Below, piece by piece: positions 357-37,369 of a stretch of 64,000 nucleotides of DNA. The notes below the pieces were generated by a model that was not told the origin of the DNA, did no database searches, and saw only the letters and a list, made by a program, of their open reading frames with translations. Source of the DNA: Pseudarthrobacter sp. PS3-L1 (lineage in GTDB: Bacteria > Actinomycetota > Actinomycetes > Actinomycetales > Micrococcaceae); assembly GCF_030063285.1 (NCBI RefSeq), contig NZ_JASISU010000001.1:682001-746000 (forward strand), in the 5' to 3' direction. The translations under genes and the position numbers were made by a program. How positions within the stretch are numbered: the stretch's first letter is position 1; each line of letters starts with the position of its first letter.

Positions 357-2027
357 GTGAGCTTCACGCAGCTTGACCGTGTTCCCATCCGCCGAGCGCT
401 GATCTCGGTGTACGACAAGACCGGTCTGGAGGAGCTTGCGCGCGGACTGCACGACGCCGGCGTGACCCTCGTGTCCACCGGTTCCACCGCCAAGAAGATC
501 GCCGCCGCCGGTATCCCGGTCCAGGAAGTCGAGGAGGTGACAGGGTCCCCGGAAATGCTCGACGGCCGGGTCAAGACCCTGCACCCCCGTGTCCACGGTG
601 GCATTCTTGCTGACCGTCGCGTCCCCGCGCACATGGAGACGCTGGCCAGCATGGAGATCGAAACCTTCGACCTCGTGGTGGTGAACCTCTACCCGTTCGT
701 GGAAACCGTGAAGTCCGGCGCAGAGCGCGATGACGTTGTTGAGCAGATCGACATTGGCGGGCCCGCCATGGTGCGCTCCGCTGCGAAGAACCACGCCGCC
801 GTCGCAATTGTTGTGGATCCGACCTTCTACGGTTCCGTCGTTACAGCTGCGGCTGAGGGGGGCTTTGACCTGAAGACCCGACGCCGGCTGGCTGCGAAAG
901 CCTTCGCCCACACCGCGTCCTATGACACCGCAGTGGCCAGTTGGACTGCCAGCCAGTTCCTGGATGAAGACGGCGACGGAGTCATTGACTGGCCCGCCTA
1001 CGCCGGTCTCGCTCTGGAGCGTTCAGAGGTTCTGCGCTACGGCGAAAACCCGCACCAGCAGGCAGCACTTTATGTGGACCACTCCGCCCCGGCCGGCATT
1101 GCGCAGGCCGACCAGATCCACGGTAAAGCCATGAGCTACAACAACTTTGTTGATGCCGATGCTGCCCTGCGTGCTGCATTCGACTTCAGCGAGCCGGCCG
1201 TCGCCGTCGTTAAGCACGCCAATCCGTGCGGAGTTGCGGTGGGGTCCGTTGATGCCGCAGATCCCATTGCTGATGCCCACGCCAAGGCGCACGCCTGCGA
1301 TCCGGTCTCCGCATTTGGTGGCGTCATCGCTGCGAACAGCACGGTCACCGCTGGCATGGCGCGCACCGTGGCTGGCATCTTCACCGAAGTTGTCATCGCC
1401 CCGTCGTTCGAGCCTGAAGCCGTCGAAATTCTGTCCAAGAAAAAGAACATCAGGCTCCTGGCCCTGCCTGAGGGATACGGCCGCTATCCGTCCGAAATCC
1501 GCCAGGTATCCGGTGGTGTGCTGGTCCAGATGTCCGACAAGGTAGACGCCGACGGCGACAATCCAGCCAACTGGACCCTCGCCGCCGGTGTCGCAGCCGA
1601 CGAGAAAACCCTCGCCGACCTGTCCTTTGCCTGGACCGCGTGCCGCGCAGCCAAATCCAATGCGATCCTGTTGGCCGCCGACGGTGCAGCAGTGGGCATC
1701 GGCATGGGCCAGGTCAACCGCCTGGATTCCTGCCGGCTGGCTGTCGAACGCGCCAACACGCTTGGGGTTACCGTCGATTCCGATGTTGACGGCGCAGGTG
1801 GGGCCTCTAACGCAGATTCCGACGGTGCCCCCCAGCGCGCACGTGGCGCGGTGGCGGCTTCGGACGCGTTCTTCCCGTTTGCTGACGGACTGCAGATTCT
1901 GATCGATGCCGGTGTTCGCGCCGTGGTCCAGCCCGGCGGCTCGGTTCGCGACGAGGAAGTCATTGCCGCAGCCAATGCCGCAGGGATCACCATGTACTTC
2001 ACGGGCGCCCGGCACTTCTTCCACTAG
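357..2027 (+). CDS. purH: Bifunctional AICAR formyltransferase / IMP cyclohydrolase
   Basis: Catalyses the last two steps of purine synthesis: formyl transfer from 10-formyl-THF to AICAR, then ring closure to IMP, in the cytosol. The protein is 556 aa. The N-terminal MGS-like cyclohydrolase domain (about residues 10-150) contains [15 protein letters not shown]. The transformylase domain carries the KHANPCGVA catalytic motif near residue 286 and ends with the typical [15 protein letters not shown] and [10 protein letters not shown] blocks. A Gly/Ala/Asp/Ser-rich insertion lies at about residues 474-493, just before the conserved [12 protein letters not shown] block. The start is GTG with a GGAG about 8 nt upstream. 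There is no purN next to it; the upstream neighbour is divergent, so purH has its own promoter, which I could not place. Confidence 0.97.
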
Positions 2028-2063
2028 GACTCGGGTCGCGCGGTTGCTGCTCGCCAAACAACC

Positions 2064-2107
2064 AAGAATGGACATGTCCGTCCTCCCCGACGGACATGTC
2101 CATTCTT
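2064..2107. repeat. Perfect hairpin, copy A of repeat unit
   Basis: The left arm AAGAATGGACATGTCCGTC (2064-2082) and right arm GACGGACATGTCCATTCTT (2089-2107) are perfectly complementary over 19 bp, with a CTCCCC loop. Each arm contains one GGACATGTCC palindrome. It starts 36 bp after the purH stop and could act as a bidirectional terminator or mRNA 3' end, although no clear U-run follows. Confidence 0.85.
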
Positions 2108-2292
2108 TGTTGGTGCCCGTGGGCATGATCGGTTCTGCTCACTGGTGGGATTCAGGGCTGGACATGTCCAGTGAAAGTTCTGTCCCCAAAGGTTGGACAT
2201 GACCAATCTGGGACGTCGTCCAAAGCTGTGGGTGTTCCAACGCCACGCTTCGTGGCTGGGCTTGATGTCGGATATGTCCATGCCCTGCAACG

Positions 2293-2338
2293 AAGAATGG
2301 ACATGTCCCTCGCGATGCGGAGGGACATGTCCATTCTT
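2293..2338. repeat. Perfect hairpin, copy B of repeat unit
   Basis: The left arm AAGAATGGACATGTCCCTC (2293-2311) pairs perfectly with GAGGGACATGTCCATTCTT (2320-2338) around an 8-nt loop. Compared with copy A, the base pair at arm position 17 is switched from G-C to C-G, a compensatory change that keeps the stem. The 64 bp after the stem are nearly identical to those after copy A. Confidence 0.85.
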
Positions 2339-2460
2339 TGTGGCTACCTGTGGGCATGATCGGTTGTGCTCACTGGTGGGATTCAGGGCTGAGCATGTCC
2401 AGCCGGGGCGGGGCTAGAGATTGAGCATGTCCAACCCGCGGGGGTGGGGGAGGGGGCTGC

Positions 2461-3432
2461 TCAGGCCGCTGCGGCCCGGTTATAGGCCTGCTGGATGACG
2501 GAGCCCCAGTACGGGCCATACATGGTGCTTGAGTTGGTTCCGTAGCCATAGCTGTTGACGGAGTTTTGCTTGCCGGTGGAGCTGGTGCCCACAAACCATG
2601 GCCCGCCTGATGATCCGCCAGTCATGTCGCAGGGGATGCCCTGGGTGGTGCCTCCCGGGTTGACGGTGTCGTTGGTGGCCTTGCCGGAACAGCTCTTGAG
2701 TGTTGCGCCATTGAATGGGGAAGCGGCGGGGTAGCCGAAGGCCTTGTAGGTCAGTCCGCGGGATGCATTGAACTGGATTCCGGAAGCTCCGACGGTGTCG
2801 CTGAGGGTGCGCCCGTTGAGCGGGGAGACCACGGCGAAGCCTGTGTCGTACTGGATGTCGCCCTGGCCGGTCCACTGCGTGGGTGCGTACAGGCCTTTGG
2901 CTGCGAACTTGCCGTAGGGTGCTGCACCGTTGTTGTAGGCGGGGACAAAAACGAAGTTGGTGACAAAGTTGCCCGGCCCGTCATTGATGCAGTGCCCGGC
3001 GGTGGAGACTGTGCTCTTGTTGGCAGCGGCAATAGAGTTACCGGAACAGACGAAGTTCTGGCCGCCCTGGGTGAAGAAGACCTTGCCGATTGTTGCCACA
3101 GGGCTCTCGCTGGCCGCGTTCAGGACCGGGGTTTTCGGGGCAAGTTTTTCTGCGCTGGCGGGTGCGCCCTTGTCCACCACGGACCGCTCCAGGCCCAGGG
3201 TGCGCTTGACGGCGGCGTCCGCCCGCTGATCAGCGGGAATGGCTCCGATCATCCGCTCGGCTGTCCAGTACTCGGCTGCCGAGCTATTGTCCACGGCGGC
3301 GCTGGCAACGGAAGGGTTGACCTTTTCCTGTGCGGCCGGCGCGGCTGTGGCAGCTCCGGCAGAGGTCAGTGCCAGGAGTGCAGCAGCTGAGAGGCTGAGC
3401 AGTCCCGTGGTCATTTTTCTGGTCGACGTCAT
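2461..3432 (-). CDS. Secreted trypsin-like serine protease
   Basis: Predicted extracellular chymotrypsin-fold (S1/V8-like) endopeptidase of 323 aa. Residues 1-31 form a Sec signal peptide (Arg/Lys start, Leu/Ala core, cleavage near ATAAPA). A propeptide-like stretch of about 90 residues follows. The catalytic triad is visible: His147 in STAGHC, Asp196 in DTGFAVV and Ser275 in GGSSGGPWF. Cys129, Cys148, Cys248 and Cys268 could form two disulfides. The gene is convergent with purH across the CATG repeat array and divergent from icd. A TGTCAA/TTGACA palindrome lies 95 bp upstream of the start. The substrate is unknown. The calcium and extra-domain features of larger secreted proteases are absent. 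Confidence 0.9.
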   Translation of the reverse strand: MTSTRKMTTGLLSLSAAALLALTSAGAATAAPAAQEKVNPSVASAAVDNSSAAEYWTAERMIGAIPADQRADAAVKRTLGLERSVVDKGAPASAEKLAPKTPVLNAASESPVATIGKVFFTQGGQNFVCSGNSIAAANKSTVSTAGHCINDGPGNFVTNFVFVPAYNNGAAPYGKFAAKGLYAPTQWTGQGDIQYDTGFAVVSPLNGRTLSDTVGASGIQFNASRGLTYKAFGYPAASPFNGATLKSCSGKATNDTVNPGGTTQGIPCDMTGGSSGGPWFVGTSSTGKQNSVNSYGYGTNSSTMYGPYWGSVIQQAYNRAAAA

Positions 3433-20158: not shown

Positions 20159-20202
20159 GCTTCCTAGGGTACCCGCGAGGATGGCCTGACTTTGATATTC
20201 TG

Positions 20203-20284
20203 GACCGGTCGCAACTGGCGTTGGGTGGCTTACCACCAGGGAGCGGCACTTACGAAGACCACGGATCGTACGCCTGGGCCGAGG
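20203..20284 (+). ncRNA. ZTP (pfl) riboswitch
   Basis: An aptamer sensing ZMP/ZTP, the AICAR phosphates that build up when 10-formyl-THF is short. The conserved blocks of the pfl motif appear in order: GGTCGCAACTGGCG (20207-20220), a GGTGG-CTTA-CCACC hairpin followed by AGGGAGCGG (20224-20246), and the distal CGCCTGGGCC (20271-20280) that pairs back as the pseudoknot. It sits in the 5' leader of glyA, about 155 nt before the start codon, the usual setting for this class, and serves glyA-folD. Assigned from motif recognition only; no covariance model was run. Confidence 0.85.
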
Positions 20285-20304
20285 GTCATGTTTTACCGCT
20301 AACT

Positions 20305-37035: not shown

Positions 37036-37369
37036 GGACATGTCCATCCCGACCCGGGACAGGTGGGCATGTGCGTTTCTGCCAAGCCGCCAATTCGGAC
37101 ATGCTCAGCTGCTTGGGGAAGCGATGGACATGGCGGGTTATGACCATCCTTTGCAGTTACAAACGAGCATGTCCGTCCCCATGGGTTGTTCCTTTTGGGC
37201 CATCATTCACTCCAGCTGCGTTGAATGGTCATGCCCATCGTTGACATGAGATCGCGGATGAACATGTCCTGCGGCTTCGTTGAGCGCTGGACAGGGTGGT
37301 TTATGCCCACCCTTCGCATCTTCGAACGAGCATGTCCGAGGGGGTTGTGCTGGAAGGATGAGCATGTCC
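37036..37369. repeat. Array of CATG-centred palindromes, locus 2
   Basis: Fills the 393-bp gap between the amidohydrolase and ohrR. RRCATGTCC-type motifs occur at 37036 (perfect GGACATGTCC), 37065, 37097, 37126, 37165, 37227, 37260, 37328 and 37360. Steps are 29, 32, 29, 39, 62, 33, 68 and 32 bp, the same set of spacings as locus 1, with some steps doubled. Motifs are more degenerate than at 2064-2432 and no perfect long hairpin remains. No gene is visible in it. Confidence 0.75.

Follow-up and report, generated by a model that had tools for sequence, protein, structure and literature searches.

REP, ERIC and similar short palindromes lying between bacterial genes were recognised decades ago, and their purpose is still argued. 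REP sequences are defined by a RAYT-type transposase; the MITE-like ERIC/RU-1, RUP and NEMIS repeats are imperfect palindromes of about 100 bp that occupy intergenic DNA in tens of copies within one bacterial group; and parS, matS and KOPS are dispersed protein sites. Here we describe a family of four-site modules, present as an array behind purH in Pseudarthrobacter sp. PS3-L1, which looks like the ERIC/BIME repeats, its copies sharing mainly half-sites and distances. In this family, which occurs at housekeeping gene ends, the retention of half-sites and spacing can be quantified in situ and separately from the remainder of the element, which opens the way to a direct test. In the open-licence literature, nothing was found for GGACATGTCC together with Arthrobacter, and the family is undescribed among the matches listed (titles and beginnings of abstracts).

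As in the REP, BIME and REPIN sequences, short intergenic palindromes lie here at gene 3' ends in composite arrays with set distances; unlike them, the module is a 73-bp, four-site structure with variable spacers, and no GTAG-type tag was noticed in its consensus. Membership in the REP/RAYT class was rejected: the Y1 transposase (PF01797; matches in 5 of 14 known genomes in a control search) matched in two of 204 genomes of the genus and exceeded the cut-off in only one, G032, a carrier of modules, with no match in the window's own genome. Hence, the modules are not REP/RAYT elements. With ERIC/RU-1, RUP and NEMIS the module shares the form of an intergenic imperfect palindrome, a likeness to their general description rather than to their consensus sequences, but its copies are only weakly alike internally, mainly half-sites and distances being kept, and no target duplication was seen. 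The two hairpins of the purH array (T1 and T2, below) resemble intrinsic terminators in their strong stem, T-rich tail and location 3' of purH, with an A-rich stretch on the other side, whereas the modules at most loci have no T tract and show little sign of selected pairing. Finally, the sites resemble parS, matS and KOPS as palindromes apparently held in place by selection, but are arrayed with steps of 29 and 10-11 bp at gene ends instead of being scattered singly.

Layout of the purH array

The window, that is, the whole 64,000-nucleotide stretch of DNA that was analysed, carries the array in the gap between two genes which, as the initial annotation had it, are convergent. The features are as follows (features other than genes have no strand assigned).

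357..2027, + strand: purH (AICAR transformylase / IMP cyclohydrolase; Pfam AICARFT_IMPCHas, E 7.4e-111), ORF, the upstream convergent gene
2059..2112: hairpin T1, arms 2059-2082 and 2089-2112, loop 6, inverted repeat 96%
2092..2169: module E1, with M1 2092-2101, M2 2121-2130, M3 2134-2141 and M4 2160-2169; 2 mismatches
2195..2204: isolated site GGACATGACC, lying between modules
2233..2305: probable decayed third module, score 11.5 of 16, under the chance-test threshold of 12
2287..2344: hairpin T2, arms 2287-2311 and 2320-2344, second copy of T1 from a tandem duplication
2323..2400: module E2, the duplicate of E1
2423..2432: isolated site GAGCATGTCC, trailing the modules
2461..3432, - strand: protease-like ORF, predicted secreted trypsin-like serine protease, the other convergent gene
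37036..37369: another array of this family, consisting of modules 37100-37171 and 37263-37334 and of single sites

The ORF at 2461..3432 matched no Pfam family at E 0.001; we take it to be a protease from its GHC and GGSSGGPW motifs. The second array lies 3' of a peptidase-type ORF (+) and ahead of a MarR-type ORF (+), both named by eye.

The CATG motifs reported earlier are real, and the array is larger than had been described. Eleven CATG occur within 2064-2432, where the window's own density predicts 1.9, namely at 2073, 2095, 2124, 2163, 2198, 2279, 2302, 2326, 2355, 2394 and 2426; five of these eleven sites are the perfect palindrome GGACATGTCC that had been noted. Over the window, RRCATGTCC has 22 strand-matches against 3.2 expected, a number reached in none of 100 shuffles. 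The successive CATG steps are 22, 29, 39, 35, 81, 23, 24, 29, 39 and 32 bp, so that the reported steps of 29, 32-35 and 39 were correct, but those of 22-24 and the one of 81 had been omitted. The 81-bp step is accounted for by the probable decayed module at 2233-2305, which fills it and prolongs a 35-29-11-29 rhythm. In E1, the CATG-type sequences start at 2095, 2124, 2134 and 2163, M3 having decayed to TCTGCTCA; the cores of E1 and E2, as searched, are 2095-2166 and 2326-2397.

The whole stretch 2059-2432 is a tandem duplication with a unit of about 230 bp: segments 2089-2171 and 2320-2402, covering the 83-nt overlap of E1 and E2, are 90% identical at an offset of 231 bp, and segments 2059-2082 and 2288-2311 are 92% identical at an offset of 229 bp. 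Each unit consists of one terminator-like hairpin and one 72-73-bp module, the right arm of the hairpin (T1, T2) doubling as the first site of the module. T1, preceded by an A-rich and followed by a T-rich stretch, is terminator-like on both strands and folds at -42.8 kcal/mol (z -8.6 against shuffles). Our own scan called both T1 and T2 terminator-like on both strands; a second terminator scan listed T1 on the - strand only. No Rfam family reached its gathering score within the array. The earlier statement that this is not a CRISPR holds: the palindromic half-sites alternate in orientation, and the repeat families have two to four unequally spaced copies. Going beyond the initial annotation are the symmetric 29-10-29 spacing, the third, decayed module, the duplication of a whole unit, and the finding that modules recur behind genes in other genomes.

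The spaced module and its place behind genes

The initial annotation had proposed to gauge the motif by its genome-wide count, its intergenic enrichment, its spacing and position relative to gene ends, and its recurrence in relatives. The count as such does show an excess, with 24 copies of GGACATGTCC in the window's own genome against 2 for the reversed pattern, 10-78 against 0-5 in 48 genomes of the same genus, and 0-16 against 0-6 in 30 genomes from other families of the order. The bare 10-mer, however, is a poor measure, and counting it was dropped: genome G001 has 21 copies against 2 reversed and yet no module, and lone copies, inspected by eye, lie mostly inside reading frames. Among 15 loci with GGACATGTCC from three relatives, 3 were in arrays, at two sites. 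Since the 10-mer is enriched where modules are absent and the lone copies inspected are mostly coding, the spaced module, which is the actual signal, was used as the measure.

The module comprises four GGACATR-type half-sites within 72-73 bp, M1 and M2 pointing forward and M3 and M4 backward, with CATG-to-CATG steps, in the clusters of the window's own genome, of exactly 29, 10 (or 11) and 29. The inner half-sites face each other as TGGACATR-N6/7-YATGYCCA, with one outer half-site 29 bp away on each side, and the consensus of 57 copies with one centre length is GGACATGCCC-N-TGGACATA-N7-TATGTCCA-N-GGGCATGTCC. Copies of the own genome and of Soil763 have a centre step of 10 (one of the former being readable as 11), and most copies elsewhere have 11; both lengths coexist in some genomes, and among 98 non-redundant copies the centre is 11 in 60 and 10 in 38. 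Four CATG at module distances, with up to 2 mismatches, occur at 12 places of the own genome and nowhere with the reversed control. At array loci that had not been chosen for their step, the step of 29 was found 31 times (seven genomes, purH site) and 27 times (eight own loci), whereas steps of 28 and 30 at the same loci stayed below the listing threshold of 3; in 380 kb of own background, no step reached that threshold. The motif, as RRRCATGYYY, coincides with the p53 half-site consensus, surely by chance. Two loci are unusual in their layout: L225 1668-2830 (G295) has nine tandem modules with a nearly constant 7-bp centre, several at a 104-bp period, and at L069 1600-2990 (own genome, C13) motif sites flank one ORF on both sides, the C-terminus of which is endonuclease-like (DUF559-like).

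The module recurs in relatives. Of the 206 genomes in the GTDB genus to which the window belongs, 58 match the three-site pattern (M1-M2-M3, centre 10 or 11); each carrier has between 1 and 33 forward matches, and the reversed control matches in no genome. The other 148 have no match, so that the genus can do without the module. A scan of 84,980 species (one genome each), from which the record of the window itself and those very close to it may be missing, yielded 21 stretches of the 10-step form, all in Arthrobacter (Soil763, ok362, U41, SO5, Leaf69, OVS8 and AL12). The module is, accordingly, seen only in Arthrobacter, a statement that is collection-wide for the 10-step form and, for the 11-step form, concerns genomes within the genus, to which that genome search was confined apart from viral contigs. 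Viral contigs had no match to either form, and plasmids none to a four-module array. A search for four CATG with one mismatch and a 10-step centre matched 25 of 150 genus genomes: in eight (G000, G024, G031, G046, G083, G118, G119 and G159) the GRRCATG context was seen by eye, and the other 17 had one match each without it. In 120 genomes of the family, the 10-step search matched five, with the GRRCATG context in G000 and G119.

The modules sit behind stop codons, mainly between convergent genes, singly or in tandem. Two of 161 module matches, a number that includes at least one place (L069 1608) counted at both centre lengths, fall inside genes predicted by our own simple gene finder (L102 and L114, from G046 and G083), so that the modules, in this respect, behave like the REP palindromes, placed outside genes at 3' ends. 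The gaps that contain modules, 101 in all when those of related genomes are treated separately, are convergent in 51 cases, tandem in 45 and divergent in 5. As a baseline, DNA sampled from the own genome and from G024, together with the window, has 27 convergent gaps and 48 divergent ones, and within the module loci themselves the numbers are 10 and 43; the convergent bias has an odds ratio of 25 with p 1e-15 against the pooled baselines, and p 7e-11 against the first baseline alone. When gaps that share an orthologous flank are collapsed, 41 groups remain, of which 20 are convergent, 18 tandem and 3 divergent (p 2e-5), and retraining the gene finder on all loci shifts one or two gaps (51, 43 and 6 of 100). 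In tandem gaps, the module is closer to the upstream stop in 38 of 45. The flanking genes include those for an S1-domain protein (a flank at 7 module loci), DnaX, a class-III aminotransferase and ferredoxin; among 202 flank proteins, 49 clusters join different loci, and the purH/protease pair makes both flanks at six loci (L007, L156, L197, L205, L246 and L247).

Binding sites or hairpins

How the half-sites fare relative to the sequence between them was followed in the loci of G109 and G306, those of G306 having been located by alignment without use of the motif. Alignment was possible for eight of the nine modules; the remaining one is an additional tandem copy present in G109. The differences amount to 5 of 240 positions in half-sites, 22 of 288 in spacers, 1 of 56 in the centre and 156 of 4953 in the flanks. 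Half-sites thus differ less than spacers (p 0.005) and, between these genomes, are selected in place relative to them; from the flanks, which include coding DNA, they do not differ (p 0.45). Between different loci of one genome, 93-94% of half-site positions are alike, a value inflated because the copies were found via their half-sites. One extra tandem module distinguishes L287 5882-5987 (G109) from L284 9777 (G306), the aligned stretches being about 97% identical.

Recognition sites and distances that are kept exact across related bacteria look like a working DNA element. We infer that the module is bound by a protein, acts as DNA and insulates or ends transcription; specifically, we favor, tentatively and with slightly less than even confidence, the reading in which a putative sequence-specific DNA-binding protein, which would mark or insulate gene ends, recognises the phased sites of the array. 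Such a protein would bind the half-sites, most likely as a dimer or higher oligomer, and the bound complex, most likely marking or insulating the gene end, might block read-through and the collision of converging transcription, or hold torsion; at purH, the bound array would act next to a terminator-like hairpin made of the same motif. Among the three roles offered by the initial annotation, an array of protein-binding sites is the best supported, by the exact spacing, by the conservation of half-sites above spacers and by the lack of a signal of strand-specific RNA pairing described below, the binder itself being putative. Against this reading speak the covariation at the inner flanks and the near-perfect hairpin copies, features that binding sites do not need, as well as half-sites that change no more slowly than the mixed flanks and spacers that are not free.

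A more specific version, possible but on the unlikely side, envisages a genus-specific device in which a dedicated putative DNA-binding protein would occupy the four-site modules between convergent genes, so that transcription would be ended or separated by a roadblock. If true, this would be a bacterial counterpart of protein-made terminators. Bolder still, a tyrosine recombinase could use the inner half-site pair around the variable 6-7-bp centre as its core site and the outer half-sites as its arm sites.

Less probable than the binding-site reading, and in our judgement unlikely, is that a folded nucleic acid is what matters, each module forming one long hairpin, either at the RNA 3' end, as a terminator or end protector of either transcript, or as a DNA cruciform. 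The dyad symmetry of the module, an imperfect palindrome, is real, and its position at 3' ends would suit this explanation, as would the hairpins T1 and T2. All ten folded stretches (nine modules and T1) lie below the shuffle mean, with z from -1.6 to -11.2; near-perfect hairpins were found in L226 (z -11.2) and L234 (z -11.0), but E1 of the window folds only weakly (z -1.6). In the 57 copies of one centre length, spacers pair in 422 of 969 cells, compared with 395 in shuffles (sd 14; highest of 2000, 449). The covariation score was reached by 1 of 500 shuffles and the number of paired cells by 6 of 500, and controls slid along the alignment pair in 33-43% of cells versus 74%; the excess over shuffles is, however, small (74.1 versus 72.6%), and two measures are at chance, namely pairs changed on both sides (23 versus 22.8 expected; 331 of 500 shuffles) and further pair types (71 versus 69.8; 203 of 500). 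Column 24, beside the inner half-site, makes Watson-Crick pairs in 29 of 57 copies, about 17 being expected. The variable half-site columns 4, 5 and 28, in contrast, pair at 0.74, 0.60 and 0.70, near the chance values of 0.72, 0.59 and 0.70, as does column -1 at 0.74 versus 0.66. A z of 4.2 for covariation at position 28 was inflated because copies with centres 10 and 11, whose lineages differ there, had been pooled; it is absent in the 57-copy set. In the alignment A1, columns 29-33 with 57-61, the arms covary just outside the inner half-sites and hardly inside them. Folding of each arm as a hairpin of its own was rejected, the values being below the shuffle mean (145 versus 157; 158 versus 172).

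The data give no support to strand-specific pairing of RNA. In 44 tandem copies read on the sense strand, 56 G-T against 52 A-C amounts to no significant bias; copies mixing the two kinds number 43 of 98, with 44.7 expected; and a wider column set, with 126 G-T and 105 A-C, leans RNA-ward without significance (p 0.19). Of 64 tandem copies, 6 have a T-rich tail on the sense strand and 4 have one on the other. Terminators built of the motif were also discarded as a general rule, since they account for 16 of 163 strand-calls, some of which are one hairpin called on both strands, and 14 of the 16 are at the purH site. A stem-loop with a T tract is, therefore, a property of T1 and T2 and not of modules generally, and the structured mRNA 3' region suggested in the initial annotation suits these two hairpins and lacks support in the modules.

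Mobility and the history of the purH site

Doubtful, and weaker again, is the possibility of a small non-autonomous mobile palindrome, of the ERIC, RUP or MITE kind, that settles at gene ends and whose putative mover needs both motif and spacing. The intergenic position, the palindromic form, the variable number of matches per carrier and the patchy occurrence in the genus all agree with it, as does the number of tandem copies, which differs between close species by a whole 105-bp unit.

The purH site offers the best point in its favor, or in that of a transferred element. The protease homologue is present in 196 of 204 genus genomes; 30 loci were taken, of which seven were dropped for want of a recognisable purH end. 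Among the remaining 23, motif sites occur in seven (4 to 39 sites) and are missing from 16, several of which have, by eye, an ordinary GC-rich terminator; G175 and G313 have no sites in the purH gap, yet match the module pattern elsewhere. The purH tree groups the window's genome with G128 and G137 (98/94), and the closest proteases found to that of the window, at 80% identity, are from the same two genomes, so that both genes flanking the array had an ordinary history; the other carriers at this site in the tree, except G161, form a separate clade (97/93). Neither G128 nor G137 has a motif site in its purH gap. From this kinship with site-free genomes it follows that either the window's lineage acquired the array or its close relatives lost it; the whole gap differs in G128 and G137, however, so that no boundary is readable.

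Against mobility, copies within a genome lack the whole-length similarity typical of MITE/ERIC-like elements. Spacer identity between loci is 44% (G109) and 47% (G081), above the 30-31% of shuffled letters, so that a weak likeness remains, from common origin or constraint, which in itself speaks for mobility; at this level, though, no recent spread is seen. Furthermore, the positions recur across several genomes, the Y1 transposase is nearly absent, viral contigs and plasmids were negative in the searches described above, and an unsystematic look met no empty site with a target duplication. The REP/BIME-like mobile repeat of the initial annotation, accordingly, keeps its look and its 3'-end location but is countered by the scarcity of the transposase and the dissimilar spacers.

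An origin in chance, base composition or mere duplication of terminators, to which the two terminator-like hairpins, the tandem duplication and the enrichment of the 10-mer in module-free genomes might point, is extremely improbable and was refuted by the reversed module controls (0), by 20 simulated windows with no module at threshold 12 against four observed in the window, and by a step of 29 without neighbours at 28 or 30, most modules elsewhere, moreover, having no T tract.

Elsewhere in the window, a ZMP/ZTP riboswitch (Rfam RF01750) lies at 20201-20286, shortly 5' of a serine hydroxymethyltransferase-like ORF that is followed by a folD-like ORF (both named by eye).
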